Of a DNA stretch of 64,000 bases, positions 1 to 64,000 are shown piece by piece. The DNA comes from Planoprotostelium fungivorum. Taxonomy: Eukaryota > Evosea > Variosea > Cavosteliida > Cavosteliaceae. The notes under the pieces were generated by a model. The model was not told the origin of the DNA. It did no database searches and saw only the letters and a list, made by a program, of their open reading frames with translations. Made by a program: the position numbers and the translations under genes. Where the stretch lies: NCBI GenBank assembly GCA_003024175.1, contig MDYQ01000111.1:155012-219011 (forward strand), written 5' to 3'. Position 1 is the stretch's first letter. Each line of letters opens with the position of its first letter.

Positions 1-2051
1 ACTCTGGTCACCCGTTAGAACGTATGGCTTCCGTGATGTTCGTGTATCTCTTCTCCTTGCCATGGCTGTCCGTCACTGTCCTCCTTCAGTCTCTCATCAT
101 CATCGCATGCGTCTCACAGATGACTCCGTCCATGGTAGACGAGACGAAGAACTGACAAAACCTCTTCTTACTGTCCGTGTAATTGATCTCCATCGCTCCA
201 GGAGTCGTCTGCCCCTATCAATATCCATCTACACCGTTGTAGTCTGACGTCCCACCTTCGAGATACGGCAGAGGAAAGTGCCGGGCCAAGTGTCTGCCAG
301 TAGGAGAGCAGCTTCGTTCTTTGACAAGTAACCGTAGAACCACTTGCATTGGAACATGCCCTTCACCTGATCCATCGTTCAGCTCGCATTCCACGGTAAG
401 AGACGTCGACGGATACGGTACTTGACGTGAGATCACCTGTTCGACGCAGTTGCCGTTGGAAGTGCGAATGGGGCCGAAAAAATGCAAAAAACTCTCGAAA
501 ACGGTTCGATTTACAACGTCCAGGTTACTGTTATCTGACGTGGGGTCAGTCTTGATGTCACCATTCTACATCGTTGTAGATCGACTCTTGCTCACCCAAC
601 AAAAATTTGAGAATGGACTCGATATCAGGGCGAATGGTGATGTTCAAAAATTCAGCCAACGAGTGAACGAACGATTTCCAATTGATGTACAGCTGCGTCA
701 GCCGCGTCAGCTCGATCTACAACGTTGTAGACGGTCACCTGAGTTCCAAAGTATAACTTCCAAAATCCGATGGAGGACGCCGAGGTGGGTGAATAGAGAG
801 GAGAGTCGTTCGAGTCTTCTGACTCATCATTCAACGTCTGATACTTGCGATATGCATTCAAGTTGTACGACGTGATCTTCATTCTATAGGTAGAGCGATA
901 CGTGTTCAACACCGAAGCCAAGACACCTGTTTCGAGTCGGTTCCCGCCCGAAAAGAAGGTTCAAAATTCGAATTCTCACCGGAAGATTGGAGGTTGTCGA
1001 CGAACATGTGATAGTCTCGAATTGCGAGTCTCAAATCTTTGAGCAAGTGATCGGGAACGCCTTCGAAAGTCAGTTTAAAATCCTATTTTATTCTTTTATT
1101 CTCGATGTGTCTCACCTGCTTTCAGCCTCTCGAGCATGTCTAAACCGTTGTAGACGCTCGTCATCGCCACGGTGTATTCCTCCGAGCAGTCTGCGTCTGC
1201 CTCTCTCAACATCTTTGCAGTGATTAGCGAGATGTCTTACGCTAACAAACACGCTCACCTTCAAGATTCGATTGCATTTCTCCTTGCACTGCAATAGATC
1301 GACCTGTGTTCACATCAGAGATGATGACAAGATGGAATGCATACCTCATGTTGCGTGGTCAGTCTCTCTACCTCTGGTAAGCTCTTTCGCGATCCTCTCA
1401 GTATCTTCAAGATGCTGAGACCTTGATCGGTTCCTGAGCCCGATGAAGATCGATGGGTGATCTCTTTTCCGTATGCGGCAGTCTCTCTATAGTCTTTCTC
1501 TTTCAGAGCCTGCTTGTAAAGTTCCTCTGTCACGGATTCAGGGGAGATGAAGACATCTCGTGAGACTCACCGATATACTGTCTATATTCTACGCTTTTGA
1601 TGAATTTTGGAAACGAATCCATGGTCAGAAGGTTCAGGACAGCAGCGGAAACTTCGTTGAAGGCATCACTCTTGAGGTTTTCCGCATCGAGGATCCTGGC
1701 ACTCATTGATTTTCTCGTTTCAGAATCTACATTGACTTGGGTTTCTGCGTCTGAGGAAATGAAGGTGTCATAGATGAGCTTGGCTCTTTTTCCTCTTTCC
1801 TCGGTTGTCATCTCTCCCGCTGCAGATTGAAATGAGATCAGCTCTCTATAGCAGTCGAGGTTTTCCACTGAGAAGGTCCTCCTCAAGAATATTACGAATA
1901 GATCGTAGAGCTCCTCCAATCGTATCAGGACCCTCTTATCATTACATAAAACCGAAGTAGTCCGCCCGCTGACATCTCCCAAGATCTCATCCAATCTCGG
2001 TGGATTATCCAATGTCAGCTGCGGCGGTGAAGCTGTCTCCGGCTGGGGCAT
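1..2051 (-). CDS. RGS domain - Cbl-like TKB/SH2 protein (3' end beyond window)
   Basis: The ATG is at 2051. Exon 1 (2051-1571) encodes a clear RGS domain at about residues 40-160, with the typical helical pattern of a GTPase-activating protein for G-alpha. Further exons join in phase (1526-1345, 1304-1259, 1212-1116, then pieces down to 1) and encode a long helical stretch, an EF-hand-like segment containing INWKSFVHSLAEF, and an SH2 domain with the phosphotyrosine-pocket motif TFLCRIS and a C-terminal YTNITEAIRSNG. Four-helix, EF-hand and SH2 in this order is the layout of the Cbl tyrosine-kinase-binding region; a STAT-like linker-SH2 is an alternative. The SH2 arginine is present. No RING is seen, but the gene runs off the window at a donor site. 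It likely links G-protein and phosphotyrosine signalling. The RGS call is strong; the Cbl-type reading of the middle is inference. Intron 693-738 carries the dispersed palindrome. Confidence 0.75.
714..733. repeat. Dispersed palindrome copy inside an intron
   Basis: The 16-bp palindromic core TCTACAACGTTGTAGA lies at 716-731, inside the 46-nt intron 693-738 of the minus-strand RGS gene. Read on the gene strand the intron begins GTGACCGTCTACAACGTTG, nearly the same as the 40-nt intron at 39821-39860 of an unrelated kinase gene. Confidence 0.8.
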
Positions 2052-2564
2052 GAGAGCTGATGGCCCCAGCTCTTCGATAGGGGAAAATATTTGATATGCG
2101 CAACGAGCTGCTTCGAGGTCACGTGACCTATATATGTGTGGAACTTGTCAACTGTACTGCGAACGCTCTGCGTCTTTCATTCCCGCGGCCCAACCATACA
2201 GGGCACAGCAACTCATGAAGCCACTCACCGTGTCTGCCAGAGTCACACATTAGAGGTGCAAGTAGAGGAGGAAATCACAGGACCGCGATACAGCGAGATT
2301 CGAGTTCTATTAATAAAATATCGATAGGCTGACGGTCTGGGTAGAAGAAACTTGTATGAGACCTCTACAGATCTCGGAAGACAGGCCTACGTCCGGGCCA
2401 CGAGAGCAGAGAGACAGCGCGAGACGATGACATTGGAGTTTGTTGTGAGTTCTCAAACTCTAAAGTCATGTTGCAAGAGGAGCCCGCGCGACATTATCGC
2501 TAGATCTCCGGGTCATTGCCGTGACGGAAGATATTTTGCATCACAATGTGGAACATGATGCATC
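2052..2564. other. Upstream region of the RGS gene
   Basis: About 510 bp between the RGS gene start and the 3' end of the coiled-coil gene. I see no convincing ORF. The only clear signal is the E-box palindrome and TATA-like stretch listed separately. Confidence 0.5.
2117..2136 (-). promoter_or_regulatory. E-box palindrome next to a TATA-like stretch
   Basis: The perfect 12-bp palindrome GGTCACGTGACC (2117-2128) abuts TATATATG (2129-2136), 66-85 bp upstream of the minus-strand RGS start. CACGTG is the classical E-box core. The same hexamer recurs near the starts of other genes (6336, 6355, 34190, 35306, 35319). A promoter role is inferred from position only. Confidence 0.45.
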
Positions 2565-4016
2565 TCATCCTTTACTCTTCTCCTTTCTCGCTTGGACGAG
2601 TTGGGCGTAGACCGTCACCATCTGTCTCTCTAATACCTCTACTTTCTCCTCTTCATCTTCCACTTGGTCGTTTGTTTGTGTGGATAACCCGTAACATTCT
2701 TGTGTCACTGTGTCCCTCTCAGTACCGCTTTCCATGTTTCTGCTCACTCTGCATGCCCTTCTGTCTTCGATTCAATCTCTGTTGAAGGTTCTCGCATGCC
2801 TCCTCCAGCATCTTGTTCTTCGTCTGTTCGTGTTTGATGGTAAGATCTTTATCCCACAACAGCCGCTCGAGAGCTTGCATTCTCTCTGGATCTTCTAACG
2901 GTTGTGATCCACCCATCTAAGATGATCAGCGCGTGAGAGGAGGAAGAATAAAAGGAAAGCATCCGATTTTAATCATTTCCCCAGTCGCTCACCTCGTGAC
3001 GTCTCTGTACTTCTTCCAAGTTTGTCCTCAGCATGTTGTTCTCTTCTTTCAATATGGAGATGTCTCTGGACAATTGAGGTTCGCTGACAGACTGCTCCCT
3101 GCCTCCCTCTTCGGACCATCGTCTTCCATCACGATCAGAGGCGAACGATGAAGAGCACTCACCTTCTCAGTTCTTCCAGAGAATCGAGTTGAATGTTGAT
3201 AGAGGCTTTGACGTCCACCAACATCGTCAACCTCGATCGAGATGAGACGTATGAGATGAAAGATGAGATACCTCTGAACTTCCTGTTCTAACGACTCGAT
3301 TTTAGCTCCGCTCAACTGCAACTCTTCTTCCATTCTCGGGCAATTGGTGCATTGATGTACTTCTCTGGATAGTTTCTTGTCTATGCTTTGTGGATCGGTA
3401 CCATGCAACGGAGACGCTCATACTCACTGATGGGTTGTCCATCTAAAATCTCACGGATGGCGGATAGTTGTTCTTCGTACGATTCGATGCGATCATGTAA
3501 CGATCGATCTGTGGAATGAATCTCGTCATTATGCAGAACATCGGTGCATGCCGGTGCAGAGACTCTTCGTTTCTTTCTGTGTCTATCCATTACCGCACGA
3601 TTGGCATTTGTCTTCACAAATCAGTACATTCAACATCTGTTTCAGATGATTGTAAATTTCACCTTGTTCTCTTTGTCTTTGTTATTCACTTTATCATCTG
3701 TGTCTTTCTCCTCCTTCTTCTTCTTGGGTGGAACGAACGTCATTTCAGGCCTCAATACACCACCATCTCGTTTGAGAATGTGTGATGTCTTATCTGGCTC
3801 TTGAGGTATAGGTGACGTTTTCTTCTTTCTAAATGATTCTGAAGATGATTGTCTGCTCAAAGAGTAGAAATCCATTTCGAGTTTCGTCAGTTTGTTGGGT
3901 GAGGCACCGTTCTTATTTGGTGCCGATTTCATCTTGTGGTGATGATGATATGCGTTTTCCGATGCGATGTGATGTGATGATGGTAAAAAGAAAACCAAAA
4001 GGATCCAAGCACTCAT
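2565..4016 (-). CDS. Coiled-coil protein, function unknown
   Basis: Several minus-strand exons join in phase. The N-terminal part (from ATG 4016, or more likely ATG 3932 starting MKSAPNKNGASP) is Ser/Lys-rich and disordered, with a PPKKKKEEK basic patch. It is followed by TNANRAVMDRHRKKRRVS and then heptad-rich segments typical of coiled coils: DRIESYEEQLSAIREILDG, EEELQLSGAKIESLEQEVQR, ILKEENNMLRTNLEEVQRR, MQALERLLWDKDLTIKHEQ. The last exon ends QLVQARKEKSKG and a stop at 2565. The peptide from the 4016 start contains a hydrophobic stretch that could mimic a signal sequence, but it ends in a His run and reads more like 5' leader. A cytoskeletal, centrosomal or golgin-type scaffold role would fit, but no family is recognised. 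Confidence 0.6.
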
Positions 4017-11302: not shown

Positions 11303-13312
11303 ATGGTGAGTATGATTCTGTATTCGAACCTAATCTCATGCAGTTTGGACAACCTGCAGCTGGTAATCTACATCCTTTGTGAATATTGTTAGAATATCTC
11401 ATTAACTTCTCCCAGCACCATCCTTCGGTGGATTCGGTAATACTAATACGCCATCGACTCCAGGTGATGTTATATCCGTAATAGAAATCCATCACCTTCG
11501 CGATTGCATCTGTATACAGATGTACATTCTGTGTATACATCATTTCGACTTTGGCTTCCCATCCTCCCATCTTAAATATCTGATCCGTGGATTCACATTT
11601 CAATCACACCATCATCAATTCTCGACCCTTCGAACATCCACCCATCGATCGTCGAATGACAATGATCCACAGCTTTCGGCGCTTCACCCTTTGGCGCACC
11701 CGCCAGCACACCTGCCTTCGGCGCACCTGCTAGCACACCTGCCTTCGGTGCACCTGCCAGCACACCCGCCTTCGGTGCACCTTCCACCGGTTTCGGCGCC
11801 AGCACATCTACCTTCCCCTCTTTCGGTGCACCTGCTGCCAGTACACCTGCCTTCGGTGCTGCCAGCACACCTGCTTTCGGTGGCGCCAGTACACCTGCCT
11901 TTGGTGCTGCCAGCACACCTGCCTTCGGTGCTGCCAGCACACCTGCCTTCGGTGGCGCCAGTACACCTGCCTTTGGTGGCGCCAGTACACCTGCCTTCGG
12001 TGCTGCCAGTACACCTGCCTTCGGTGGCGCCAGCACACCACCGTTCGGTGCATCGACTGGAGGCTTCTCTGGATTCGGTGCATCCACACCAAGCTTCGGC
12101 TCCCCCTTTGGCGCCACGCCCGCCGCGAATAATCTACCACAGGCACCCTCCACACGTGATTACCATTACGATGTCACGGACGATATCACATCGACACCGG
12201 CTGATCGTTACAGCGTTGGGTGCTAACGCGGGATACGGTCAAGCTCAGTCCTTTGTGATCACACCTCAACATAGAGTCAATGCCATCCAAGAAGCTTACA
12301 ATACGAACAGTCCAAACTGCAGGTTCCGGTACATGCTGTACAATGAAGTCAATCCGTCTGACGTGAGCGTTTTGGCGGGAGATTTGAATTTTAAATTGGG
12401 CAGGTGGCGTCGTTTCGTAAACCGGACAATGTGAGTCAGAAGGCGTGGAATGATGCCATAGAAAATAATCCGGACCCCACGCGGTGAGTTACATCTACAA
12501 CGAGCCAAACCTGACCTCCCCCAGCCTCGTTCCCGTGCAAGCCAACGGTTTCACTGAATTACAAGAGAGAATGGAGGGACAACAGAAGAGGGCAGAAAGA
12601 CACAAGACCATATTGAACAATATCAGCCAACAGGTCACATTTTTTCCTACATTTTTCTCACGTTTTTCTCAGAAGTTTCGTGGAATTCTTCTGACGTTCA
12701 CCAGGTGACAGACATGCAGAGGACACACACTCTTAGAACTCTCGGTAGAATCGAAGAATACAAACACGCTCACATGCTCATGGCTCAACGCATCCTCAAC
12801 CTCGTCAAGAGGATGGAGGTGATCCACCATCTACAACGTTGTAGATGCAGTCACGTGACCTCCGACAGACCATCCGATGGCAGGGACTACCACTTCCTGA
12901 TGGGCCGGAAGTTGCATTCTTTAACCGAGTGTGGGAGGCAGAGCAGTATCTCGTTCAACCAGACTCTATTCGAGGAAAACTGAGCGAGGTGATTTTATTC
13001 TATTTTATTTCTACGATCATCACGATGTCCATCACGATGTCCATCACGATGACTGATGATGGGGACAGTTGGCGGCGCTCAGTTATCAAGAGGACGACGG
13101 TATCATCGCGGAGGAGTACAGAATCGAAGAGTCGGAGTTGAGGAAGGTCCACGAGGTGATGGATGAGACACGTGATGTCCATTCTCATCTTGATGCAGTT
13201 TCTGTTGCAACAGGCCGAAGGGATCTCGAAGATGATGAAGGCCGTCGAGCAGTTGAACTCGGACACACAGATCAAATTGGAGGGAATCCAACAAATGAAG
13301 AGAGACTATTGA
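11303..13312 (+). CDS. NUP54: Nucleoporin NUP54/Nup57 (central channel FG nucleoporin)
   Basis: Multi-exon gene. The N-terminal half is an FG-repeat domain of FG dipeptides in a Thr/Ala/Ser/Pro spacer (ASTPAFG units). The C-terminal half has the NUP54 landmarks: [51 protein letters not shown], then a coiled coil ([40 protein letters not shown]) and a helical tail to the stop at 13312. It would sit in the Nup62-Nup58-Nup54 complex, binding karyopherins. Start choice: ATG 11303 followed at once by a consensus intron (GTGAGT...ATGCAG) gives MFGQPA; unspliced ATG 11338 gives MQFGQP. Intron 12819-12850 is only 32 nt and is mostly the 20-bp palindrome. Confidence 0.9.
11690..12075 (+). repeat. 24-bp coding minisatellite (FG repeats)
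   Basis: Tandem units of about 24 bp encode the eight-residue spacer-plus-FG unit of NUP54, with silent and conservative changes between units. Copy number is likely variable. Confidence 0.8.
12819..12850 (+). repeat. 32-nt intron made mostly of the 20-bp palindrome
   Basis: The perfect palindrome CATCTACAACGTTGTAGATG occupies 12828-12847, between a nine-base donor segment (GTGATCCAC) and CAG. The flanking exons join in phase 0 to give the expected NUP54 reading ([11 protein letters not shown]). The transcribed palindrome could fold back on itself. Confidence 0.85.
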
Positions 13313-15725: not shown

Positions 15726-20493
<4,768 letters not shown>

Positions 20494-27240: not shown

Positions 27241-29087
27241 TCACTTGTCTCCGGCGTTCGGTGCGGTCGTGATGATTCCACTGTTGGACGTAGATGCTTC
27301 AGTTTGGGAGGTAGAGAATGTCGCTTCTACTGTGTCTGAGCTTCCAGAAACCGAATCGGAATCGGAGACGGACGTCGCGGTGACCACTGGGTTGGAGCTC
27401 GTTGTAGACGAAGTCTCCTGGGTAGTTGTAGATGTAGTATCCTGGCTCGTTGTAGACGAAGTGTCTTGGCTGGTGGAAGAAGCGATAGAAGTCTGCGTAC
27501 TCTGCGTAACTTCGGTCTCTTGCGTAGTCTCCGTATCTTGAGTAGTCTCCGAATCTTCTGTGCTCGATGTGCTTTGACTCGTTGTAGATGAAGGGGAGGA
27601 CGACAGAGATCGGTAAGCCTGGTGGATGTAACTGGGGAGGGTGACCGAATTGGCCAGAGTGTGGATGTGTACACCCGCCAATTGATGAGAAGCAAAGAAG
27701 GCGATCTGTGATGGATGAGAATGGCGATGACGATGATGGCGAATCACCTTGTTGTAGATGGTCACGTTGTTCTCCCAGCCGATCCAGTTGTCTCCTGGAG
27801 AGATTGAATATGGAAAGCGTTGGATGATGTCATGTGATGTTCACCTTGAAGGAGGTAGAATTGGTCTTGTGAGGTAGAATACACTCCAGTAGCTCCATCC
27901 GCTTCCAAAGAATCCAACTGCATCATCGTCAACACGATCGAGATGACATGTGATATGGTGCATCACCTCTCTCTGAGACAGTTGACCCTCTCCAAACTGA
28001 GTACTGAGGCATCCAGAAGGATTCAACTGGGCCACTGGAGAGCCCACGTCTGTAAGACTCGAATTGGCGAGCTGGTATGTGATGCCGGTACCAGGGATGC
28101 CGACGACGATCTGATTAGAGGATGAGCGACGAGGAGACGCCTTCTCATCGACACACCTTCTGACTGGGGATCAATTGGACGAGCTCTTGGATGGTCCATT
28201 GCAATGATGAGAGGGGGGAGAGAGCGGATGTTCCGACCGTCTGGACCGTCCAGCTTCCGAAAAAGGAGATACTGTCCAAGATCATGTAATCGACTGTGTC
28301 CGAATGAGATGTGATGCATCATACGATACACGAACCGATATTGGCCGTTTGGGTGTAGTTCAAAGTCTGGTACCAGTCACTGCGAACGGATGTCCAGAAG
28401 AAGAGTTCCAAGGGCTCACTCTGGGCGGCGATGGCCGCTCGAACTGCGGTGGCGAGGCTCAGTGCTTTCGGCTGTGGAACATGATGAGTCCAGAGGTTGT
28501 GATGTTCGAGTCTATCTCACTCCATCGTCTTGACTCCATGTCCAGTGGATCTCAACACCCTTCATGCCATATTGGAGGGCGTATTGGATGAGACCGGAAG
28601 CAAAGGAGCTAGTCTTTGTGGCGTTCTCATACAGAGTGTCCTGCAGATCAGTGCTGGTGAGGGAGGAGATCTACAGAAGATGGTGAGTCCGCGATATGGA
28701 GACGACTCCATCGAGGTGACTCACCACGAGCTTTGTGGTGGCATTCTGTTGGGTGATATCGTTGAGCATACCAGGATATTGCCAGGCTGTGGCGCGTCAA
28801 CATCATTAGACAATACATCAGACTCACCATCCCCCTCTGGAAAGGTGTCCGAGGCAGTGTCATACGCGGCATTCTGGATGATGATGTGTGTGTACTGCGT
28901 GTAATCGATCTGAAGAGTCCCCTTAGTATCCACACTGCATGATGCTGGTGCTACTCACGGTGTCTGGGCTGACCGCACACAGACCACCCGAATAACGGAA
29001 CCAATTCTGGTAGTAGGCCACGCTCAGGGGGGTACCAACGGTCGCCGCCAGGAGGCTCAAGAGAACGATGAGGGTCTGGACCTGCAT
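27241..29087 (-). CDS. Secreted GH18 chitinase-like protein, catalytic motif degenerate
   Basis: ATG 29087 starts a signal peptide (MQVQTLIVLLSLLAATVG) followed by the GH18 first-strand signature VAYYQNWFRYSGG and IDYTQYTHIIIQNA. Later exons give LIQYALQYGMKGVEIHWTWS, VMILDSISFFGSW-like strands, IVVGIPGTGITYQ and a C-terminal tail of about 110 residues made of Ser/Thr/Gln repeats (STTSQDT type), typical of O-glycosylated cell-surface stalks. In active GH18 enzymes the strand-4 motif is D-G-x-D-x-D-W-E. Here it reads K-G-V-E-I-H-W-T, so the catalytic Glu and both preceding Asp residues are replaced. It is more likely a chitinase-like lectin or a wall or cyst protein than a hydrolase. Several half-site copies (GTTGTAG) fall inside the Ser/Thr-repeat coding region. 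Confidence 0.7.
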
Positions 29088-29689: not shown

Positions 29690-32600
29690 ATGGAGGGTAA
29701 GTGACTTTCTTGCGAAGTCTAGACCTCCATTCGATCTCTGATCCTCGGTCGTCATCTTCTCAACTTTTGATTCATTTAATGCAGATTGGTTTCGTCCAAC
29801 TATCAGTCGCGTCCAAGCGGAGGTAATGATTTTCTCTTCACACAATCGTTTGCACAAAGACTCACGATACATAGAACCTTCTGGCCAATTTAGAAGTCGG
29901 AATGTTTGTCGTCCGTGGTTCCTCACAGCCCGATAGCTACGCTCTATCCTATGTGGACAGCAGCACCGATGTAGTGCATTCCCTGATCAACAAGACGCCA
30001 TCTGGTTTCATTTTGCCCGACATACCAGCCGCTGTATTTCCAACTTTAGAGGCTCTCGTCTCCGCTTGTAACTTTCTTATGCAAATTCCAAAGAAGAAGA
30101 CGCTTCCTCATCAACAGCCCGCCTCCCCAGCTCCACCCAATGTCAATAACTACGCAGATCCATACCCTGCCATTGCAGCAGCAGTTGCTGGCGCCAGCAC
30201 CACATCACCGACCAACATCCAATCACCCAATGTTCAATTATCAAATGTTCAAACACCCACACCATCCAACAACGCTCAAACACCCAACCTCCCTATCATC
30301 CAATCTCCCAAACCTTCGAGTGTCCAATCATCCAAGACCTCCAATGTCCAATCACCCGAAACCGTATCACACGATTCATCCATCGCCATCATCTCGGAGG
30401 CGTTTACCGACAGAAGCGCAGCGGAGATCAAAGAAGCATTGAAGGCATCTCAATATGACGTTACCGCCGCCATCGATCTCTTGGTGAGTCCACGCGTCGG
30501 ACTCATCGTCATTACCTCTTCTTCCCTTCTCATCATCTCCTGCCTTCTCATCTCGTTATCTCTTGTATGATCTCATCATCTCATCATCTCATTTGCATCA
30601 GCTGCGCACGCCCGCAGAGCCCAAGAAGATCGTCGAAGAGGCCCCCCGTGTCTCTCAGAAAATCGAGTGAGTCCGTCTACATCGTTGTAGATTGACTCAT
30701 TTCCCCAGATCTCCACGATCCATTCCCGAGGAACAACCCAAGGAGAGGAAATCGTGAGAGAGTGGAAATTTCGCGGGAAATTCACGAAAACAGGTTCAAC
30801 GTGGTCAACGTCTTCCTACAGCACATCAAGACGAACGTAAAATACTCACCCGAAGTAAGATATCTCACTTGACACACATTTCACTGAAATTTCTCAGTAC
30901 ATCGACGAGAACTGGGCCAGGCTGCCCAAAATTTTGGACCAGTCGAACGTCCCTGGTTCCCTGGAGAGTAACCTCCACAAGATCCTCCAGTACGTCGAAT
31001 TTCCTCCGAAATTTCTCACCGTTCCAGGAACACAGACCACCCGTTGGGTTTGAAGATGGATGCCTTCATCAACAACTACAACATGACCATCACCGTACCC
31101 TCTTACGGTGCAAGCAGAGCTCTCGCCGAGGCATCCAATTTCGTCACTTCCCTACAGAACATCATCTCGTCCAAGGTAACGACCATCTACAACGCTTCAT
31201 TGAAATGAAACAGGTGGAATCGTTCAGAAGTCCACTCGGTAGCCAGGTCGCCTGGAGGGTTATCGTTTCCGTCTTGTTGCCCAGAGTATACGAAAACCTC
31301 TTCCACATAGTTACGTCGGAATTCGCTGCGGTGAATTCCGATCGACTCCACAAGATGAAGCAGCTGGTCAATTGTGAACCCGCGGTCTTTCTCGGTATGG
31401 TTCGTTGTAGATGACCGGAAAATAACGGAAAATAGGGAGGTCGACGCCGGTGTCGAAGGCTCAGTTGGAGGAGGTCGCGAAGCGATTCGCGGAAATCAGT
31501 CGAACGATTCCGGTGCACAATCGATTGAGCCTCTTAGTTGAGATCGTGCAGGCCATCTCTGATCTGGCCCAACCAGCCGTAACGTGAGTTTTCATCTGAT
31601 TTTCGTCGACATACATACTGACCCCTCATCCAGGAACGCCGATAGCCTCTTGTGCTATTTCTCCGCCGTGCTGTGTTATTCCGGATTAAATTCTCCGATG
31701 GCCCACGCTCTCATCACTCGAACTTTCTCTCCTCCATTCGTCATCGAAGGCCTCGAAGGTGAGAAATTTCCGCGAAAGAGAACCGAAATATCGACGAATC
31801 TTCAGGTTTCGCCTTGACCGTGTTTGAGACTTCACTGGATTACGTGCACTCCAATTCTCAGGCCATTCTACCCGAAGTCACCTTCCGGTAATCACCCCAA
31901 CTCGTACGTACGTAACCTGAAATCTCCCAGAAACGTCCGCGCTCCTTCCCTGGGTGTTCCCAGGTCGGCCGACGGCAGCCCCATCGTCTTGTCTTCCACG
32001 CGAAATCCCACGGTAAATCCGGCCAATTACTTATCGGTACGTATGGTAGCCAACCACTTGACGTCCTCCGACCCACAGCAATTGGCCCAGCAGTATCCTT
32101 ACATCAGGAAGGAGACGAGGACAGAAGAGCCCCCGAAGGAAATCAAACCAGGTGAGGCTCGTTGTAGACGATCGGATGATGACGTCATCAGTCGAAGAGC
32201 CTCCGGTCGTACAGCCGGAGCCGAATTTTTCCGGTTACGGAAATCTCGATGATGTCTTTGCGGGAAGGGAGCAGGAGAAATCGCAGGCGCAGAATCCAGC
32301 TCCCGTGAGAGCGACTGCCACATTACCCTCCTTGAGTCCGAGCGTTCCCAGGAATCACGTGGTCAGTTCTCCGAATCTTCCCAGGATGCCCACGGCTCCC
32401 GCACCTTCTCCACCAGTCCCCGCCAGTGAGAGACCTGAGATTTCCGAGAAAGTTCTGACGTAGACTAGATGCCTCTTGGAGGGAACAGGCGAAGGTGTCT
32501 CCCTCGACTTCGACAGAAAAGGTCAATTTCCAATCTACAACGAGCCCCGTACCAGCCACTACGTCTGCTGCGAGCACTCCGAAGCAGCCTTTGAACCTGT

Positions 32601-35611: not shown

Positions 35612-38600
35612 ATGAGACAGAGCATGAGGAGTCTTACCACTCCTCTATTCCTCCTGCTGTTTATGTTCCTCTGCTCGTCTGACGCTTTTCCTACTGATCC
35701 ACGCACTCTGGCTGCACTTCGAGAACTGAACGTACAAACAAAAGGTATGTGTCGATGGAGTCGATCGTCAACGTATCGACACCATTCGAGTGATCTGAGA
35801 ATGCATTCTCAAACATTACAGGAGAAGGTTGGAGGCATTCTGATAACTGGAACACAGGAGACGATTACTGTAATTATTTCGGTATCACGTGTTATAACGA
35901 TGGAACCATCGATGTCAAGCTCCCCTCCAATCGATTGATCGGCAAAGCATTAGATTTCCCCAAACTCTTTGATCTCCGCACTCTGAGATCGTTAGATCTC
36001 TCAGACAATGCCATCGCTGGAAATGTAATCATCTTCGACAAGATCTATCTCACGTGTTATCAGTTGCCCAATTTTACGAGAGATGCAGCCGGCATCAAAT
36101 TCATCTCCTTCAGAGGTTGTGATCTGGAGGGTTCCATTCCCAGCTCTATAGAACACATGACTCATCTCGATGAATTGTACCTCTCAGGTGATGCGGTCCA
36201 TCATCATTGTCCTCTAAACCTATACAGGTAACCAGCTGACGCACCTTCCCAACAGCATCTCCAGTCTCAGTTCGCTCAGAGTCTTAGATTTGTCCTTCAA
36301 TTCAATCAACAAGATCCCCGACACTCTCGGCTCCATGGTGATGATCGTCTCCCTTTAGACATCATGCACGATGACAACTCCTGATGATGATGATCAGGAG
36401 AGCTTGGTGACTTTGAGACTGCAAAAGAATGGTATTACCGGTAGTTTTCCCACGGTAGCCGGCTGGGACAATCTTCAAGACTTGAACTTGGCTTCGAACA
36501 ATTTCAGCGGGGCCATACCTTCACTCAGGGGGTGAGATCGTAGATTTCACGGAGAACTCACGGTGACAGGTGTGTCAATCTGACACGTGTTAACTTGGCC
36601 CACAATCGTCTGAGTGTTGTCGACAAGAAAGCTTTCTTCTATCTACAACGCCTCAGATACCTCGATTTGAGTTTCAATTCGTTTTTCGGTGAGATTTCTC
36701 TCCATGGCAAAAAAATTGATGCAGGGAACCAGGATCGATGCCGAGGCTACCGTCTACCATCTCCTCCGTCCAATTGAACAACAACCTCTTCTTTGGAGAT
36801 CTCCACGAGTTTCTCACAGACCTCTCCAACTTCACTTCTCCGAGAGGTAAATCGTTAATTATTCGTCCATCTACAACGTTGTAGATGATCTCTTGACCAT
36901 CGACGTATCAAACAACCATCTGACTGGAACTCTACCCGAGGCGATGGGAGATATACCACATTTGAGCAGCTTCAAAGCTTCACAGAATGTCTTAGAAGGT
37001 GGTCTACCCGATATGGTCGAATGCGGCAAGTGAGTGACGTAACGTAAGAGATGGGGTGGAGTAACCGTGGGACAGATTGTCGGAGTTAGATCTGTCCGAC
37101 AATCATCTCACCGCAGTCAACTGGACCCGACTGGATGCCTGCAACGCCCTCGCCACTCTCGATCTATCGAATAATTCGGTGAAATCTAGGTGAAATTTCA
37201 TCGACTGATTGTGACAGATTGGAGGCGATGTAGATAGCTTACCTCGTAGTGGAGTCTTATCTGCACTGGACGTCAGCTACAATCGAATTTCGGCCGTGTC
37301 GGTGGGTGGAGTGTACAGAATTCTCAATGAAAATGTTTCAGCTGACAGCGTTACCCTCTACCATGAAGAATTTAGATGCGAAGAATAATAAGATGATCGA
37401 AATTCCAAAGGGGATTTATTCCGCCAATTTAGAGTGTTTAGATTTGTCATGGTGAGTTGGTGTACGTAACGTGAAATCTGATTGGATTTTCAGGAATCAG
37501 ATACAAGACTCCCTCACTTATCGGATCAGTGAGATGTCCAATCTACAACATTTGGATCTGGTGAGTACTGTACGTACGCTACGTACGTCATACTCACGAG
37601 TACAGAGCCACAATTTCATCGAAGATTCTATCCCTCGTATCATTGGCGATCTCAACTTGTTGCGTCACATGGACTTCGTGAGAATTTCATCCGTCTACAA
37701 CGACGCTTTATTTCCATCTACAACGATCTCACGTCCTCTCAGTCTTGGAACAAATTATCGGGCTCCATACCCAGCTCCCTCTACACCCTCCCCCGGCTCA
37801 TTCATTTGGACCTCAGCCACAATCAGCTGACCAGTTCTCTCTACCAAGTCGACCGACCCTTTCCCGAGCTGACTCACCTCGATCTGTCCGACAACAGATT
37901 GTCCGGTGAAATACCGCAAGACTTTGAGACCATGGGAAAACTCATCGTGGCCAATCTGTCCCACAACTCGTTCGGTGGCAGATTGTTCAGCACACACCTG
38001 ATGAGAACGCTCACCATCATCGACGTCAGCCACAATACGGATCTGAGTGGGTCCGTCACAAAGGTCGACGCTGACGTGTCGACAGCCGGGGAAATCGGTG
38101 TATTGGGGCCAGACGTGGAGCACATTGATTTCTCACACTGCGATTTCACTGGCTCGACAGAATTCTTGTCTGATCGTCCCATGATGACGTATGCTGACAT
38201 CAGGTGAGACGTCTCGACTCGTTGTCATGACATCATACAGTCACAACCGATTTGATGGACCGATTCGATACCTCCCCGGTGCACTTAATGTGAGTGGCGC
38301 GTTGTAGATGGGAGTTACATTGAATTCGAACAGTATTTGGATATCTCAAGCAACAATTTGTCCGCATTACCCGACATCGTACACCTCGAGGTACGTTTCT
38401 CTCAGAAATTACAGAGAAAACTGATCGAATTTTCAGTCCATCCAGTACCTGAACATCTCCAACAACGAACTGGATGGTGATATGCCAAAGCTTACCAGCG
38501 CCCATTTGACAGTATGTCTACGTCGATGTAGACATGTCAATCTGACACGTGACAGACTTACGATGCCAGCAACAATTTGTTCGACACTCTCCGTGATATC

Positions 38601-40951
38601 AAATCATTACCCCCCTCGGTCAACGTCTGTAGGTTTGACCGAAATCCTCTGAAATGCCCCATTTCCTGGGAAGCTTGGACCAAGTGAGGAAAATTTCGAT
38701 GAAAATCAGTGAGATTGACTCGTTGTAGATGCAATACGAGGTGTACCGTGGATAATGGAACGGAGAGGGTGTGGATCACTGTTACCAGGGAGACTACCGG
38801 CTCAAAGAATTGGCCCGAAGCTGTCTCTGAGAGGCTAGCCAGAGCCTACAACATCACATACTCCCGCCTCCACATTCAGAAGGTGAAGAGGCACGAACAT
38901 TCGTGCCACCTGCCTCACCCCCACCCAGGAGAACGACCGGCTGGAATACCACATCGACGAACCGAAGAGAAATTTCAACGAATGGTCGTCAAAAGACCTG
39001 ACGCAGCAGATGTCTGACGACTGGAAGGACCATTCCAACTTATGGTGGGTCCATCTACAACCTGCCATTCCGAATTCCGACGGTCCGATGACAGGTTGGC
39101 CAACTACAACGTGACAAGAGTCGAATTGAGTCTCCCCCAAGAGAATCACACGGCTCTCATCGCGAGTGTATCGACGTTGACACCCCTCTTTGTGGTGACA
39201 GCGGCCATTCTATTTGTCTATCTGAGAAGGAGATGGAGAAGGGCAGACAAGAACAAACACAGAAAAAAATTTGAAAAAGTGGAACTCATCGACGAATTCG
39301 AGGCACTCACACTGTGGGATATTCAAGTTCAAGGTGAGATATGTCGATCTACAACCGGTCATATGGTTCGTTGTAGATGGTCGTATTGACGTGGAAAAGG
39401 TATTATCGGGCAGGGACATTTTGGACAAGTGTACAGAGGTCTGTGGAACAATACAACTGTTGCACTGAAGACCATGGAAACGGAGCACGATGACATGAAG
39501 AAGGCAGAGTGGAAGAAGGAAATCGTGTTGTTACAGTGAGTGTCTACACCGTTGCAGATGATACTGAGCGGAGTAGGAAATTAAATCACCCGAATATCGT
39601 CAGATTGTTCGGAGTGTACGATCTGTACAGTAAATTGTACATGGTGAGAGATTTCACAGAAATTTACGTCATTCAAAGAAAGGTATCATTTATCTAATCT
39701 GTTTGGCAGGTTGTAGAATTCGCTGAGAATGGATCATTAGATGTATTTCTACAGAAGAGAACGAACGCCAATCGACTCAGCAACAACGATCTCATTCGAA
39801 TGTGCCTGGACGTCGTCAAGGTGACCACCGTCTACAACGTTGTAGATCTGACTCAATTAGGGAATGTGCTACCTCTCGTCCAGACGAATCATCCACAGGT
39901 GATCGTCTCGTTGTACATGGATCGTCTTCTCATACTTTCCAGAGATTTAGCCGCCCGTAATCTATTATTAGACGGTTCACTCCGCGTCAAGGTGAGATCG
40001 TTCTACAACGAGCCAATTACCGACGAAATTTCAGATATCTGACTTTGGCATGAGTCGAATGGAGAATTTCTACGAATCGAGGAGCCGTGTAGTTCCAATC
40101 CGTTGGGCAGCACCAGAGATGTATTTGAGACATCACAGCTCTCTACAATCAGACGTCTGGTCCTTCGGTGTCTGTATGGTGAGTCCGAATATTTCACTTC
40201 GTTTCGTCACATTTTAAACGATTTTATTCTTTTTTTCTCATTTTTTTACCAGTGGGAGATCATGACTTTCGGTTCCAGTGAGTGTAAAGTTCACAGAAAA
40301 TTCGTCTGACGTTCGATAGTACCCTACGAAGACTACTCGAACAAAGAAGTGATCAAGCTCGTTGTAGATGACAACTACCGCCTACCTCAACCACCTCGTT
40401 GCCCTGAAGATCTGTACGGCCTGATGTTACAGTGTTGGCAGATCGAGCCCGAAGAGAGACCCTGCTTCCAAACCATATACGAGCAGATCGTCAAAGAGAA
40501 TCCGGAGGTAACATTCGAATGAAACCTTAAACCCTAAATCCCACGTACACGATACGAAGAAGACTGACGCGAAAGAACAGATCGACAAGAGAGAAGAAGA
40601 AGAGAAACATCACGAGGGAGGTCTCTTATCCAGGATATTGACATCATCTGGAGGCGACTCGATTGTCAGCTGGCCGATATTGAGACCGAATCAATCGAGT
40701 GGATCTGGTTACACAGACGAAGACAATTACGATGACAGCGCATCACGATCGAGTGAGTCATCACGATCGTCATCATCATCATCGACACGGAAAGAGGAGA
40801 GCTGACGAAGAGTTTAGGATCTCTAAGACAGAGTCGTGAAGATGATGGTGTTGGTGAAACGAGGCCATACGAGGACAACATCATGTTGCAGAGTCTGTTC
40901 AAATTTGGAGCAGGAAGGAAGTACAGTCACTTGTCTTCCGGTGAGCCGTAG
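35612..40951 (+). CDS. Leucine-rich-repeat receptor tyrosine kinase
   Basis: ATG 35612 starts a signal peptide (MRQSMRSLTTPLFLLLFMFL). An LRR N-cap follows (WRHSDNWNTGDDYCNYFGIT), in the style of plant LRR receptor kinases. Then come about 20 LRRs over many short exons (LRSLDLSDNAIAG, LRYLDLSFNSFFG, LTHLDLSDNRLSGEIP) and a Cys-containing C-cap (CNTRCTVDNGT). A membrane segment (LTPLFVVTAAILFVYLRRRW) is followed by the kinase domain: GQGHFGQVYRG, VALKTME, HRDLAARN, SDFGMSR, PIRWAAPE, SDVWSFGVCMWEI. HRDLAARN and PIRWAAPE are tyrosine-kinase hallmarks. The tail carries YTDEDNYDDS and PYEDN tyrosines, candidate SH2 docking sites. Introns at 36847-36884 and 38684-38728 end in the GTTGTAG half-site, and intron 39821-39860 holds the palindrome core. 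Some LRR exon borders are approximate. Confidence 0.85.
36847..36887 (+). repeat. Palindrome overlapping a 3' splice site
   Basis: The perfect palindrome is at 36868-36887. The intron runs 36847-36884 and ends at the GTTGTAG inside the palindrome, leaving ATG of the palindrome as exon sequence. The join gives SPR|DDLLTIDVSNNHLTG, a good LRR, which supports this acceptor. Confidence 0.8.
38684..38728 (+). repeat. Intron ending in the GTTGTAG half-site
   Basis: A 45-nt intron of the LRR kinase gene containing AAATTTC and ending CTCGTTGTAG. The join WTK|CNTRCTVDN restores a plausible LRR C-cap. Confidence 0.75.
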
Positions 40952-53699: not shown

Positions 53700-55915
53700 A
53701 TGCTAAGCGCCGGATTGACCATCAAAGGCAAGTGGAAGATCACCAGAAAGATAGGACAAGGCGCTTTCGGTGAGCGGATTTATGTGAAAGTCTCACAAGT
53801 GATACCATCTCGGAGATGTATCATATCTATCTCAATCTCTGGTCGATGGTTCTCTCACGGGCTGACCCGAAATCAGGTGAAATCTATCAGGCAAAGAACA
53901 CGCAGTCAGGAGACGATGTCGCCCTCAAAGTTGAAAAGGTAGATATCAAGAAGCAAGTATTAAAGTTAGAAGTCGCCGTCCTCAAGAAACTGCAAGGTGA
54001 ACGAGATTCTTCTTTCCATCGTCCATCACCGACACCCGACCCATCTATATGACAGAATGTCCGCACGTGTGTAGGTTCATCACCTGCGGTCGCTACGCAG
54101 AATTCAACTATCTAGCCATGGAACTCTTGGGTGAGAACCTCTCCGAGTTAAGGAGGAAGCAGCCCGATGGATGTTTCTCGATGGGCACGACTCTTAAATT
54201 GGGAGAACAATTATTACGTGTCATCCAAGCCATGCACGATTTAGGTTACCTCCACAGAGACATCAAACCGGTGAGAGACATCGAACGATACGAGAGATAT
54301 TTTCGAGCATCTACAACGTTGTAGATGACGTGAGACAGTCTAATTTTGCCATGGGGCTGGGACCGAAGAAGAGGAACGTCTTTGTCATCGATTTTGGGCT
54401 ATCTCGTAGGTTCCTCTTACCCGACGGCGAGGTCCGACCCGTATCTTTTCCCGCCATTTTCAAATTTCAAATGCGTCCCTGACTCTTCAGCCCCGCGACA
54501 GCACCGGTTTTCGCGGTACAGCTCGTTACGCATCGATCTTCAGCCACCAAGGACAAGACCTGGGCAGGAGAGATGACTTGTGGTCCCTCTTTTATGTCTT
54601 AGTGGAAATGACAAAAGGACAACTTCCGTGGAGAAAATTGAAAGAGAAAGAACAGATCGGCGAGATGAAGCAGAAGATCACCCAGGCCGAACTGTGTCAC
54701 GGATTACCCGCGGAATTTCTCACGTTCGCTCTGTACCTGCAGGTGAGGTAGCGTTGTAGATCGACGTGACGTCATCAGGGCTTGGAATTTCTGACTCGGC
54801 CGGATTACGATTACTTGTACAACTTGTTGACTTCCATGCTGTCCAGAGAGAAGGGAGAGAAGAACCTGTACGATTGGGAGGTGGCGACGGCAGGCACCAT
54901 CAGCAGTGACCCGCCCAGCCATTTGGCCGTTACTTCGGCGGGAACAGTCAGCCAGATGTCAAATACAAAGATGTCGAACCCAACTGCACCCGGACAGAGG
55001 TGAAATTTACGGGAAAAGTGGAAGAAAATTCTGAGAAAATCAGGCCTTACAGCAGGGGGTCGGGTTCTCAGATTTCACCGAAACCGATGAGAAATATCGT
55101 GAGACGTTACATCTCGTCTCGTTGTAGATGGACTGACCGTAGTAGTTGGAGAATCGAAATCGGGACGGTGGCAGCCATGGAGAAGGCGGGGATCAACCCA
55201 AAGACGACAGTTACTCTGATTCCGGCCGCCGACCCCAGACGTACAATACGTCGGACGGTGAGAAATCACCCGATGAAATCTTCCGGTTCTGAAGAACGTC
55301 AGCCGTTTTGTCCAGGGAGAAGACCCAAAAAGACAATGGAAATAACATCAGACCGACTAAACCGCCACAAGGAAGTGACGACACTGCATCGGAGAGTGAA
55401 GATCACTCAGACATGAACGAGAAGACGAAAGAGGTGATCATCTACAACGAGTCAGCGACTGATGGAATCAGGATGTGTTTGCAACGCCACCGGTGGGCAG
55501 GAAGAACAACAACGATAAGAGGTTGGGTAATGGAAAGAGCAGTGGGCTCAGAATGCAACCTCTCAACATCACAGAACAGACGGATAAGGTGACATTCACC
55601 CATCATCATCTCATCCCATCACGATCGTCATGAGCTTCGGACGTCTAAACGATGAAAGGGGCCTGTCACATCACAACCACAGACACAATCCGTTGAGAGG
55701 ATCGAACCCATCGTGCAACCGATCAAGGTGACAGAATTCGAAATTCAAAGTCGTTCTGATGGCGGGAACAGACGACCAGTACCTTCAGCAGTGGTGCACC
55801 GGCTCTCACTGATGCGACGACGAAGAATGTGGCGGGAGAGAGTGCAGGAACGAGAACGAAGCGAGGAAGAAGAGAGAGGGAGAAGAAGAGTGGGGGCTGC
55901 TGCGTTTTGCAATAA
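53700..55915 (+). CDS. CK1/tau-tubulin kinase-like protein kinase with CaaX terminus
   Basis: ATG 53700 ([20 protein letters not shown]). The CK1-superfamily kinase domain has GQGAFGEIYQA, VALKVEK, the VAVLKKLQ helix, [26 protein letters not shown], then FRGTARYAS (tau-tubulin kinase style) and [20 protein letters not shown]. After about 300 residues comes a long disordered Ser/Thr/Lys tail. In the last exons a 44-nt intron (GTGACAG...GAACAG) joins to [20 protein letters not shown] and a polybasic segment ending [10 protein letters not shown] and a stop at 55915. CVLQ is a CaaX box and the preceding Cys could be palmitoylated, so membrane anchoring is likely. An unspliced reading would instead end in an Arg-rich tail. 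Intron 54271-54338 contains a perfect palindrome copy. Confidence 0.8.
54308..54327. repeat. Perfect palindrome copy in a kinase intron
   Basis: CATCTACAACGTTGTAGATG, complete and exact, inside the 68-nt intron 54271-54338 that interrupts the catalytic loop (HRDIKP|SNFAMG) of the CK1-like kinase. Confidence 0.9.
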
Positions 55916-59868: not shown

Positions 59869-60136
59869 GAGCAATTTTATTCCGCTCTGAGACTGGCAGC
59901 AGCCACGAGAATGATAAATAAGGATTTTCATTTCCAATTGCTCGATCGAGGCAACACTACTCCGTCTCAGATTGTTTCGACCAGTATCTTCGGTTGTTTC
60001 ATTCAAAGTCACACGAACTTGTCCTCTTTTGGTGTTCAGCAGACGCCCTCTCATCTTCACGAGAAGGTGAAAGGCCATGAAGATATCACACAGAAAGGCG
60101 AAATGCGTGATAAGAGGAAACAACAAAAAAGAATCC

Positions 60137-60209
60137 CACCCGATTTGGGGTTCGAACCCAAGGCCTACAGCTTAGAAGGCTGTCGCTCTTCCAACTGAGC
60201 TAACCGGGT
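60137..60209 (-). tRNA. tRNA-Arg (anticodon UCU)
   Basis: The 73-nt cloverleaf folds completely: acceptor ACCCGGT/ATCGGGT with one G-U pair, D stem GCTC/GAGC, anticodon stem ACAGC/GCTGT with loop CTTCTAA (anticodon TCT, reading AGA), five-base variable loop, T stem TTGGG/CCCAA with loop TTCGAAC, discriminator G. The A box (TAGCTCAGTTGG) and B box (GGTTCGAACCC) are intact. There is no intron and no encoded CCA. It lies in the gap between two convergent protein genes. Confidence 0.95.
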
Positions 60210-60343
60210 GTGTTCTGCCTCCATCGCACGTGCGACGTGTATCATAAACATCTTAGTATCAACTTGTCAGTAGGTCAGGCGAACGTTCTCGCCCAGGTAG
60301 AGAATTTGAAGGTCCGTTCATTCATACGATTGTGCCCATCGAT

Positions 60344-63300
60344 TTATTGTGTCAATTCACGAACTAAATTCTTCCTCTTCTTCATCGCATCTTCAAAGAA
60401 CTCATGCGTCGTCTCCTGTTCGATTCTCCTCTTGTGGAAGTTGAGTGCGGCACGATTGACACCCATGATATCCTACCCTCTTCACTCTACGTCCCTCTTC
60501 ACTTCCACTCACCTTCGTCTGCTGCAGTGCCTTGTGCACGTTCTGTCTCAACTTGTGCATGGTACTGGCGATCTCTGGATGACTGCAGATCTGATCGTGG
60601 AACGTGTTCATCAGGAAGAAGAGGGCTCTACACACGATCTCGGTCTGCGTTGAAACGTTTAGAAGGGAGAGAGAGGATGAGTTACCTGTGTGTTGTTGGC
60701 GGTCCACGTGACCATGTAGTCGAGGAGCTCCACGGCGGAGACGAAGGGGAGAACTCGCAGAGATTCCTCCAACTCGGTCAATTTGATCTCCTTCAAGGTC
60801 TGTGCTGTGGATCAGTCTACACAATGACGTAACGTACGTACCTTCAACACGTATTCCTGTGGAGTCAGTCCCAATAGCGCCAGATTCGGTGTGGGTGCTT
60901 CTACCAGGGACGATAGGGTACCCTGACTGCGAAAAGTGAGTGAAAACTTGCGGAAAGAAGACTCACACTCTGCCCGCGTCGAGGTCACGTTTGGCGGCAG
61001 TTAGATCTTCTTCGTATTCTTTCAGCTCCTTCATCTCAGATCTGGCCAGATCTAACGCCTCCAACAACTGCTCTCCCTGTCTGATCGTCTCCACACTCTT
61101 CTTCGTCGCACGATCTCCGTCCTGATATCGTCAATCTACAACCCGCCACGTCTCCATCTACAACGAGCCCCACCTCTTCCCCGCGGTTACCCCTGACTTC
61201 TTCGTCGTCCAATAATTCTTCCATTTCTTTGTTCCTCTCTTCACTGAGGAAGAGTTGTTCATCCGTGCGAATTTGGAACCGAATCGATTTGTCGTGCGAG
61301 CAACTGGCGATGAAATTTCCGTTCCTGGACGTAGCCAAGGCCCACACGGCTCCATGGTGGGGGTCGATGGTCTGTACGTGATCGTACTGCACGTGTCATT
61401 GGCGCGTTGTAGACGATCAACTCACGGTATCGGCATCCCAGTATTTGATGGTCTTGTCTTTCGATGCGGAGAAGAGGTAGTGAGTCTTGTTGACGAAACG
61501 AACGCTGGTGATACTGTCGTCGTGGGCAAATATGGACTTGTGGCAATCTCCGAAATCAGTGCCCCAGAACTACGGAACGTCAATCTACAACGATGACGTG
61601 GGATGACGTCATCACCTTGATATTCTTATCGGCGGAACCGGTGGCGATGAGTGTTCCATCGGATGAAAAATCGACGGATAACACGGGGAGCTGATGAAAT
61701 TTCAGTGAAATCTCCGCGAATAACACTCACCCTGTGCCCGTACAGTGACAGGTAGAACTGCAGAGAATCTTCGTAGAAAACTTTCACCGTGTTGTCCAGC
61801 AGTGAAGCGGCGACGTACTTGCAATCTGGACTGTACCTCACACTCAACACGTCGTCCGACATCTTCAGCGTCCTCGTGTGTTTCAACGACAGCTGTTTAC
61901 CCTGGGTCTGAGGGGTCAGTGGCGGGTTGTAGAGCGTCACCTCACCGTACTGCTCTGAGCCAGTTCGAATTCCCAGAATTTGATGTGCTTGTCTGCTGAA
62001 CCGGTGACCATTCCGGTCTTGTCCGGCTTCACTTGCAGACCCCAGATACACGCCGTGTGGGCGTCGACCTACAACGAGTCAAAAAAAATCGCGGAGAAAA
62101 GGTCTCACCATCTGAACGCATTCACCCGAGTTGATGTCGTACACTTCGAGTGGGCCCTTCTTCGTTCCTATGACGACCATACGGTTCCCAGGGACAAAGT
62201 TACCACACATACCGTAACCGGAAGCGATGGTACGTATACACCTCTGCGACTCTACGTTCCAGATCTTAATCTCGGCTGATGAAATTTAGAGGTGAAATTT
62301 CGGGGGAATCTCACTGTTTGATGTCGTCATGACGAGGGTATCATCTACGGAGATGCATACGTCTCTTACGTCTGATCGATGCCCTGTACACGTCAGAGAT
62401 GTCTCGTTGTAGATGGGGAAATGTCCGAAATTTCACCCGGCAGCGTCAATTCGTGGGCACTCTCGAACACCTGCCCCTCTTCTCCTTCCTTCTTCTTCAA
62501 CTTGAAAACTTCGATCTTGTTCGTGTTCAGCCCCAACACCAACTGCAAACGTCATCCATCATCCATCTACAACGCGCCACCTGTTCGTTCCCGCTGAACG
62601 AGAAACAATTGAGATCTCCCGTTGCCGTGACGATCTGCATCTCTTCGAGCTCATCGGTAGCTGAAAAGTGTGCCACGTTCACCGTCTCTTCCTTCTTCTT
62701 CTCCTTCTTTCTCAGGGCTCTCCTCTTCCTTCTAGAAGAAGCTCTCTCCTCGTCAGACACGTGAAAGAGTTCGATCTGTCGACCGGAAGTCTGAACGGCC
62801 AACGTTCTACCGTCCGGGGAGAAGCGAAGGCGGGAAACTCTCTCGGTAGATTTCCTGTCGATCTTTCCGATGTAACGAGCCTAGATCTCCGTGAGTTTTC
62901 CGGCCTCGTTGTAGATGACGGGGAGCTAAAAATAGATGTATACTCACGAACGAATCGCCGTCGGAGGATGTGTCTTCCGGTGTTTCACCCTCTATGTCTT
63001 CTACGTTGATTCCCGTTTTAATGAGATGAAATTCGGTTGGGTTGAGACTCCACATGTGGATGCGAGGCCCACTGGTGGCCGTCACCATGCGAGTACCCTG
63101 TTCAGATTGAGCGGATGGCGGGTTGTAGATGGATCACCTCCGGGTTGATGTGTACGGTCCAGATCTCTTCTCTGTGGCCGACCACGGTGGCAATACACGT
63201 GCGTAGATCTGTATCCCAGACCTGTCATGCATGCATGAGCCACACGATCATCACGATGAAGAGTAGACGTGTCACCTTCAAAAGAGTATCTTTCGATGTG

Positions 63301-63920
63301 GAGACGATTTTCTTCGATTTTTCCAGATAAAAGAGATCGGTGATCTCGTTTCGGTGACCTTTCAGTCTGTACCTCGGTCACGATAAATTTCTCGGAAGAG
63401 TCTCACCTGTATAACCCCTGTTCTCCTACAATGTCCCACACCACGATGTCAGTGTCAGCTGAGCCGGATAAGAGGATGCTTCCATCGTCATTGAAGTTGA
63501 GGCATGTGATTCTCTTGTTGTGTCCGTTGAAGGTGGAGGTCAACGTCCGATCTCCCAAGTTGTATACGCGAATGGAACCGTCGAAATAACTATAAAATGA
63601 GGTCAGAGGATGAGATGGATTGATTAATTACCCCACGGCAACGGATCTATTGTTAGGGGACATCAAAAGTGATGTTACATTGCTCTTGGCCTTTGCATCT
63701 TGGAGTGAGCCGACCTATCGATCATCAGATGATCTGATTCGCACGTGATGATCCCTCTAAGAGAGAGACCTACCAATTCTCCCTTCTTCGTGTTCCAGAT
63801 ATTGACCACTTCTAAAGCAGCTGACAAGACATACTGGGTGTTAGGATCGACAGTGAGAGAACCCGAGCAGATGACACCGAACGATGCAGATGGGCTGTAA
63901 CGTAGATATGCCTTGACCAT
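60344..63920 (-). CDS. WDR3: WDR3/Utp12, WD40 protein of the small-subunit processome
   Basis: ATG 63920 ([20 protein letters not shown]) matches the conserved N-terminus of WDR3/Dip2, where the first WD repeat reads [20 protein letters not shown]. Many exons encode two tandem seven-bladed propellers (for example [39 protein letters not shown]). An acidic helical insert ([15 protein letters not shown]) and the Utp12 C-terminal helical domain follow ([40 protein letters not shown]), ending [17 protein letters not shown] at 60344. It acts in the nucleolus in the UTP-B complex for 18S rRNA maturation. Many introns carry CATCTACAAC half-sites in both orientations, one of the densest runs in the window (61133-63972). 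Confidence 0.9.
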
Positions 63921-64000
63921 CTGATGTAAAGGGGTCTGTGATGGTGATGATGTTCTCCGTTCACAACTTTTTCCGTCATCTACAAATGGTCTCTTCCTGT

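Follow-up and report, generated by a model that had tools for sequence, protein, structure and literature searches.

A short palindrome-forming DNA word concentrated in the introns of Planoprotostelium fungivorum, a candidate recognition site for a protein acting inside genes

At the sequence level, we followed up a repeated DNA word in 64,000 nucleotides of the Planoprotostelium fungivorum genome (contig MDYQ01000111.1, positions 155,012 to 219,011 of the forward strand); this whole stretch is called the window. The word is a 20-bp palindrome, CATCTACAACGTTGTAGATG, with a 10-bp half-site, CATCTACAAC, and an 8-bp core, TCTACAAC. It is abundant in the genome, concentrated in introns in the sampled DNA, equally frequent there in either orientation, and found in pairs of preferred spacing. 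We read it as the recognition site of a putative sequence-specific DNA-binding protein acting inside genes, and give this reading a probability of roughly 0.6.

The palindrome was present exactly at window positions 12828, 36868 and 54308, as the sequence-only reading had proposed. The window holds 38 exact half-sites, six of them supplied by these three palindromes; the other 32 bear out its estimate of at least 30 further copies, and the positions that it named were correct within 0-3 bases. The near copies that it proposed at 714 and 39829 stood as given, those at 18172 and 30675 moved by one base, to 18171 and 30674, and the one at 567 is best placed at 563, with 4 mismatches. The palindromic copies are listed below (strand does not apply, except where given).

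12828..12847: exact copy (20 bp) within predicted intron 12819-12868 (+)
36868..36887: exact copy (20 bp) overlapping the 3' end of predicted intron 36847-36884 (+) of an LRR tyrosine-kinase-like gene
54308..54327: exact copy (20 bp) within predicted intron 54271-54338 (+)
714..733: palindrome with 2 mismatches, TCTACAACGTTGTAGA intact, in intron 693-738 (-)
563..582: variant palindrome with TCTACATCGTTGTAGA, 4 mismatches, one half-site altered at position 7
18158..18203, + strand: intron with a variant palindrome (18171-18190, 2 mismatches) and a TGACGTCA palindrome
30674..30693: variant palindrome TCTACATCGTTGTAGA, 3 mismatches, in intron 30667-30708 (+)
39829..39848: palindrome with 2 mismatches, within a kinase domain

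Dinucleotide shuffles of the window gave a mean of 0.12 half-sites and a maximum of 1 (100 shuffles), and no palindrome within three or fewer mismatches. In the whole genome (36.86 Mb), the counts of the word and of its reversed form are 17,887 and 4,005 for the core, 6,181 and 280 for the half-site, 681 and 0 for the 16-bp palindrome, and 67 and 0 for the 20-bp palindrome. The half-site density of the window is about 3.5 times the genome average (38 copies vs. 10.7 expected from 6,181 per 36.86 Mb). The 20-mer had no match in viral contigs or prokaryote genomes, and a search of the open literature by sequence word and phrase, with the word matches listed judged by title, found no paper describing it.

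One unit of the motif is approximately CATCTACAAC-GM-GYCA, about 16 bp, and its first ten bases are the firmest. The core TCTACAACG has 138 copies; its single-base variants have 1-20 each, and at most 12 where the change falls in the first eight bases. Around 85 intronic, non-palindromic sites, the left flank is CA (72 and 76%) and the right flank is G (79%), A/C (87%), G, C/T, C, A, so that conservation of uneven strength extends from about -3 to +14. These 85 sites were picked by their exact core, which is fixed by that selection; thus, its information content there is not evidence, and the counts of one-base variants are. The result is a sharp core with position-specific tolerance, as a binding site should have. 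Beyond the motif, nothing exceeded 0.14 bit within 100 bp of the 85 sites, and there was no second element at a fixed distance.

To place the copies within genes, we wrote an unsupervised gene finder, trained on the window and the fetched loci with no RNA evidence; it misses some introns. It predicted 873 introns with a median of 44 nt, mostly with a GTGAG donor and a CAG acceptor. To avoid circularity, 179 motif sites and 149 random sites were masked and the prediction repeated (the motif-blind model). The sample is not neutral: the window was chosen for density, loci L004-L007 and L012 lie over or beside known palindromes, and L026-L028 were taken for low or high density and stand outside the motif-blind compartment count, whereas 14 loci were unselected for the motif. 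Three window genes rich in motif-bearing introns (unblinded model) are:

60344..63979, - strand: WDR3/Utp12 gene, motif in 8 of 20 predicted introns
15726..20493, + strand: PI3-kinase gene, motif in 8 of 19 predicted introns
35612..40951, + strand: LRR receptor tyrosine-kinase-like gene, motif in 6 of 27 predicted introns

Residues 6-894 of the predicted WDR3/Utp12 protein align end to end with the solved WDR3 chain 7mq8_LQ despite the 8 motif-bearing introns, which supports the gene model. PI3-kinase, protein-kinase and RasGEF domains were recovered from further motif-bearing genes. The third gene, whose kinase is named from the translated sequence, has no close copy (one 68% match over 235 bp). 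The palindrome at 39829 in this gene was exonic in the first gene model; the motif-blind model places it in a predicted intron that begins at 39821.

With the motif-blind model, 105 of the 179 sites fell in introns, 59 in exons and 15 in intergenic DNA (22.0, 3.9 and 3.1 per 10 kb), and 27 of the 149 masked random sites in introns. In the 14 unselected loci, the densities were 11.3, 2.8 and 3.0 per 10 kb. Seven of the 28 intronic sites there (18 sense, 10 antisense) belong to one tandem array in locus L013. The intron claim was to be abandoned if enrichment were missing or came from a single coding or tandem repeat; in the sampled DNA of these 14 loci, with the array counted once (six extra units excluded), introns still held 8.9 sites per 10 kb vs. 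2.9 elsewhere (odds ratio 3.1, p = 1e-4). An artefact of coding or tandem repeats was rejected on the same ground, as introns stayed enriched without the array. The array itself (L013:8996-9105) consists of seven cores in 17-bp units (TCTACAACGCACTCTCA) within a predicted 360-nt intron. A general palindrome excess in introns was also rejected as the source: once both words were removed it was weak, 1.18 times shuffles for 8-mers and 1.26 times for 10-mers (1.11 and 1.56 times in intergenic DNA).

In the window, 27 half-sites were intronic, 11 exonic and none intergenic by the motif-blind model (28, 10 and 0 unblinded), which agrees with the initial view that copies are mostly intronic. Some of the exonic ones are probably missed introns (9828, by eye) and others look like coding Tyr-Asn codons. 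Exonic copies in the sample lean sense (42 of 59), as expected of Tyr-Asn codons, and some are such codons inside repeats (window 27401-27449; locus L028). Motif-positive introns number 79 of 873 in the sample, 42 of 232 in the window and 19 of 463 in the unselected loci. Intron phase (0/1/2) was considered and set aside as a factor, at 43/20/20 for motif introns compared with 411/257/198 overall.

The intronic copies showed no preferred orientation, 53 being sense and 52 antisense in the motif-blind model, in line with the early observation of copies in either direction. Genome-wide, 1,751 sense and 2,315 antisense cores lie within 20 nt after GTGAG, vs. about 726 each under independence; this is an enrichment of 2.4 and 3.2 times, with palindromes counted in both tallies. 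Separately, another word, CATCTCAT, is strand-biased in the introns of the sampled loci (55 sense, 3 antisense), where CATCATC runs are also seen; both are perhaps related to splicing.

Pairs of sites have preferred geometries. Among 212 local cores, 30 had a perfect palindromic partner and 11 a partner with one mismatch (41 with at most one), and 10 of these 11 one-mismatch palindromes differ at position 7, a pattern that is tolerance of the recognition type. For tandem pairs, among the 100 of 507 matches listed, the offset was 22 in 29, 23 in 15 and 24 in 16; many at offset 24 are coding repeats, and repeats are still included in these numbers. For convergent pairs, among the 50 of 150 listed, it was 21 in 14, 30 in 8, 28 in 6, 11 in 5 and 22 in 4. 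The 33 divergent pairs include some duplicated stretches, and their largest class is 6 at offset 24. Offsets of 11, 21-22 and about 30 approximate one, two and three turns of the helix, unlike 28. Among the matches listed, tandem and convergent sites thus have the preferred spacing expected of binding sites. Multiple sites in window introns include:

18839..18904, + strand: three antisense half-sites at 22-bp steps (18854, 18876, 18898); intronic in the unblinded model, exonic in the motif-blind one
37678..37742, + strand: intron holding a pair of sense half-sites at a spacing of 23 bp (37694, 37717)
61122..61173, - strand: intron holding a pair of half-sites at a spacing of 22 bp (61135, 61157)
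39334..39399, + strand: intron holding a convergent pair of half-sites at a spacing of 22 bp (39348, 39370)

Taken together, the strand symmetry, the sharpness of the core, the single tolerant base within palindromes and the phasing of pairs point to a DNA-binding protein. This partly supports the interpretation first offered: of its three proposals, a site for a homodimer is the best supported, in the refined form of a predicted site of about 16 bp with several pair geometries and one tolerant base, and the introner remnant and the splicing hairpin were not supported. Two proteins would occupy the palindrome head to head, with their cores abutting, and could also be arranged on convergent sites 21 bp apart or on tandem sites about two helical turns apart. 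The sites would be retained mainly in introns, in both directions. We infer that the bound protein would act in gene bodies at the level of DNA or chromatin, the site being an intragenic regulatory or architectural element, for example by slowing RNA polymerase or organising chromatin. The scarcity of intergenic copies suggests that bound sites may be unwanted near initiation or termination, or of use only within transcription units.

A second word, TGACGTCA, which we take to be the CRE/bZIP palindrome, accompanies the motif in part of the sample. Of its copies in the sample, 35 were intronic, 9 exonic and none intergenic. Over all loci, it occurs in 15 of 96 motif introns and 18 of 870 others (odds ratio 8.8, p = 7e-8); within motif-bearing genes only, the others are 12 of 384. 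By group, the proportions are 8/42 vs. 2/190 in the window, 4/22 vs. 4/149 in the palindrome loci and 2/13 vs. 3/87 in the loci chosen by density. Motif and TGACGTCA lie within 30 bp of each other 254 times genome-wide, vs. 5 for the reversed pattern and about 55 expected by independence. The composite TCTACAACGATGACGTCA makes up 11 of the 100 composites listed, and one copy is in the window:

20079..20122, + strand: intron with the composite TCTACAACGATGACGTCA

The word TGACGTCA also occurs extended as GTGATGACGTCATCAC and as an intronic tandem, TGACGTGTGATGACGTCATCA, in 12-bp steps; introns bearing it include, besides the one above, 50705-50744 in the window and L028:2674-2734. As a true associate of the motif, it is suggestive only.

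Along genes, we analysed 85 predicted genes that are complete and have three or more introns. Positive introns were 10 of 327 in genes shorter than 2 kb and 58 of 439 in longer ones. Within genes, the distance to the nearest gene end is greater for motif introns than for the others (1,060 vs. 876 bp, p = 0.0007), with no 5' or 3' preference; TGACGTCA lacks this effect (p = 0.22). The window carries the distance effect (p = 0.09 outside it); also outside the window, positive introns are 6 of 274 in short genes vs. 21 of 268 in longer ones (p = 0.003). In a count by distance from the start codon, 5 of 197 introns within 400 bp were positive, compared with 65 of 593 later on. Placement in the middle of long genes is therefore suggestive only. 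Besides, the loci are heterogeneous: 39 of 619 introns were positive over 17 loci, four of them placed at palindromes (p = 0.008), and across 13 unselected loci p was 0.05. On contig C1, the first 140 kb held 5 of the 100 half-sites listed; two loci there (L026 and L027), with 22 and 34 predicted introns, had one site apiece, and L028, from a dense stretch, had 31.

Conservation could be followed in two places. In diverged copies on contig C11 (L030/L031), all 40 core positions are kept, with changes at 3 of 10 core-adjacent positions, 2 of 20 in GYCA and 45 of 697 elsewhere; the copies were found through two of their five sites, which makes this a weak test. In the tandem array L029, itself found via the motif, four copies keep TGGCRGGTTGTAGACTGAC and other intron parts vary between some copies. 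This locus (C5:39001-48000) carries related genes in tandem with 74-89% identity and one stretch almost identical between copies, suggesting gene conversion.

Several results weigh against a protein acting inside genes, or against the accompanying details. Regulatory sites are usually promoter-proximal, and no promoter enrichment was found here (3.1 sites per 10 kb in intergenic DNA vs. 22 in introns). No nucleosome-like spacing or periodicity was seen among 92 pairs (p = 0.55), and inspection by eye of part of the protein list gave no obvious shared function for motif-bearing genes. For the copies on C11, zero changes in 40 core positions have a probability of about 0.07 at the flank rate, with 16 of the 40 ascertained. 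In the unselected loci, TGACGTCA occurs in 1 of 19 motif introns vs. 9 of 444 others (p = 0.35), the mid-gene distance has p = 0.06, and positive introns are 4 of 196 in short genes vs. 4 of 143 in longer ones. Moreover, the excess of the 254 composites may come largely from both words residing in introns. When the sample was split, the 14 unselected loci thus retained the intron bias, and the partner word and the mid-gene bias stayed unproven there, which lowered our confidence.

Some of the same facts would suit a self-spreading motif (molecular drive), a word that biases repair, conversion or uptake toward itself and persists mainly where it is harmless, in introns. Bacterial DNA uptake sequences are thought to spread by such a self-favouring bias, and they also occur as inverted pairs. 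Thousands of sharp copies in both orientations are what a drive motif should show; the inverted pairs, the scarcity in exons and intergenic DNA, the patchiness along C1 and the lack of a functional theme among motif-bearing genes agree with it too. Pair spacings of 21 and 22-23 bp and a tolerant seventh base, however, are not predicted by drive alone, and we consider this explanation unlikely.

An element read in RNA, as a splicing signal or hairpin, is very unlikely. The palindromes could fold in RNA, and the motif, whose position inside introns varies, often lies between the donor and the branch region; at 36868, the GTTGTAG of the palindrome is the predicted 3' splice site of intron 36847-36884. 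Nevertheless, equal numbers in the two orientations argue against an RNA signal, which should be strand-biased, and most cores lack the partner that a hairpin needs (1,362 of the 17,887 genomic cores sit within perfect 16-bp palindromes, and 41 of the 212 local cores are partnered). Splice-site strengths were alike with and without the motif (donor p = 0.70, acceptor p = 0.95).

Relics of introners or of another mobile-intron family would also give thousands of mainly intronic copies, and some introns of different genes have up to 34 bp in common, in a pair that holds the TGACGT word. This origin is highly improbable, as motif introns are otherwise unalike: among 966 introns, only two pairs can be aligned along 70% or more of the shorter member, and then by way of motif letters (plus, for one of them, the 5' splice site). 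The variable position of the motif and the lack of terminal inverted repeats at intron ends do not fit either, and decay would spread mismatches evenly, whereas those observed are uneven. Motif-positive introns are longer by 4 nt in median (48 vs. 44, p = 5e-4; 1 nt in the first sample), far below the insertion of 16-24 bp. Scarcely credible is a Ruby-like promoter of intron-housed small non-coding RNAs, after the Ruby motif of nematode piRNA genes: a short core in thousands of copies, on either strand and patchy on C1, recalls it, but the 85 intronic sites have no second conserved element within 100 bp, and intergenic copies are few.

Other features of the window are a tRNA gene at 60137-60209 on the minus strand (Rfam match), a direct duplication (about 216 bp at 97% identity) at 32968-33399 in or near an SH2-domain gene, and an array of 24-bp repeats (CACCTGCCTTCGG units) at 11688-12051.

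Introns of about 44 nt are usually regarded as splice signals plus filler, and here some hold a precise, orientation-free and spaced DNA word. If it is functional, very short introns would carry DNA-level signals inside genes; if drive spread it, eukaryotes would have a counterpart to DNA uptake sequences. A bolder view, which we regard as doubtful, is a gene-body code in which a DNA-binding protein dedicated to it, perhaps together with a partner of the CRE type, would mark the interiors of long genes through thousands of sites in tiny introns and avoid promoters, or else a eukaryotic self-spreading motif surviving mainly in introns.

We compared introners, uptake sequences, piRNA promoters and intragenic CTCF sites with the motif feature by feature, and none fits all tested features. 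Transcription-factor binding sites occur in clusters and composites. The motif resembles such clusters in its sharp core, tolerated positions, preferred pair spacing and perhaps a partner, TGACGTCA, and differs in being mainly intronic and scarce in intergenic DNA, with a factor that is only putative. The CRE/bZIP palindrome is alike as the second word in these introns and unlike in that 0 of its 44 sampled copies were intergenic. Alternative splicing has been linked to CTCF sites within genes (PMC8373115); these too are DNA sites inside genes in either orientation, a likeness that covers location and orientation, not the links to splicing and to a zinc-finger protein. Introners (PMC9860276) are many-copy, intron-linked repeats like the motif, although here the short word alone recurs and not the intron. 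Protostelium aurantium is reported to have relatively many minor introns (PMC10639083). Finally, the DNA uptake sequences of Neisseria and Pasteurellaceae (PMC2397512, PMC1939737) are, like the motif, short words present in thousands of exact copies in either orientation, whereas the motif of P. fungivorum is biased to introns and follows rules of pair spacing.

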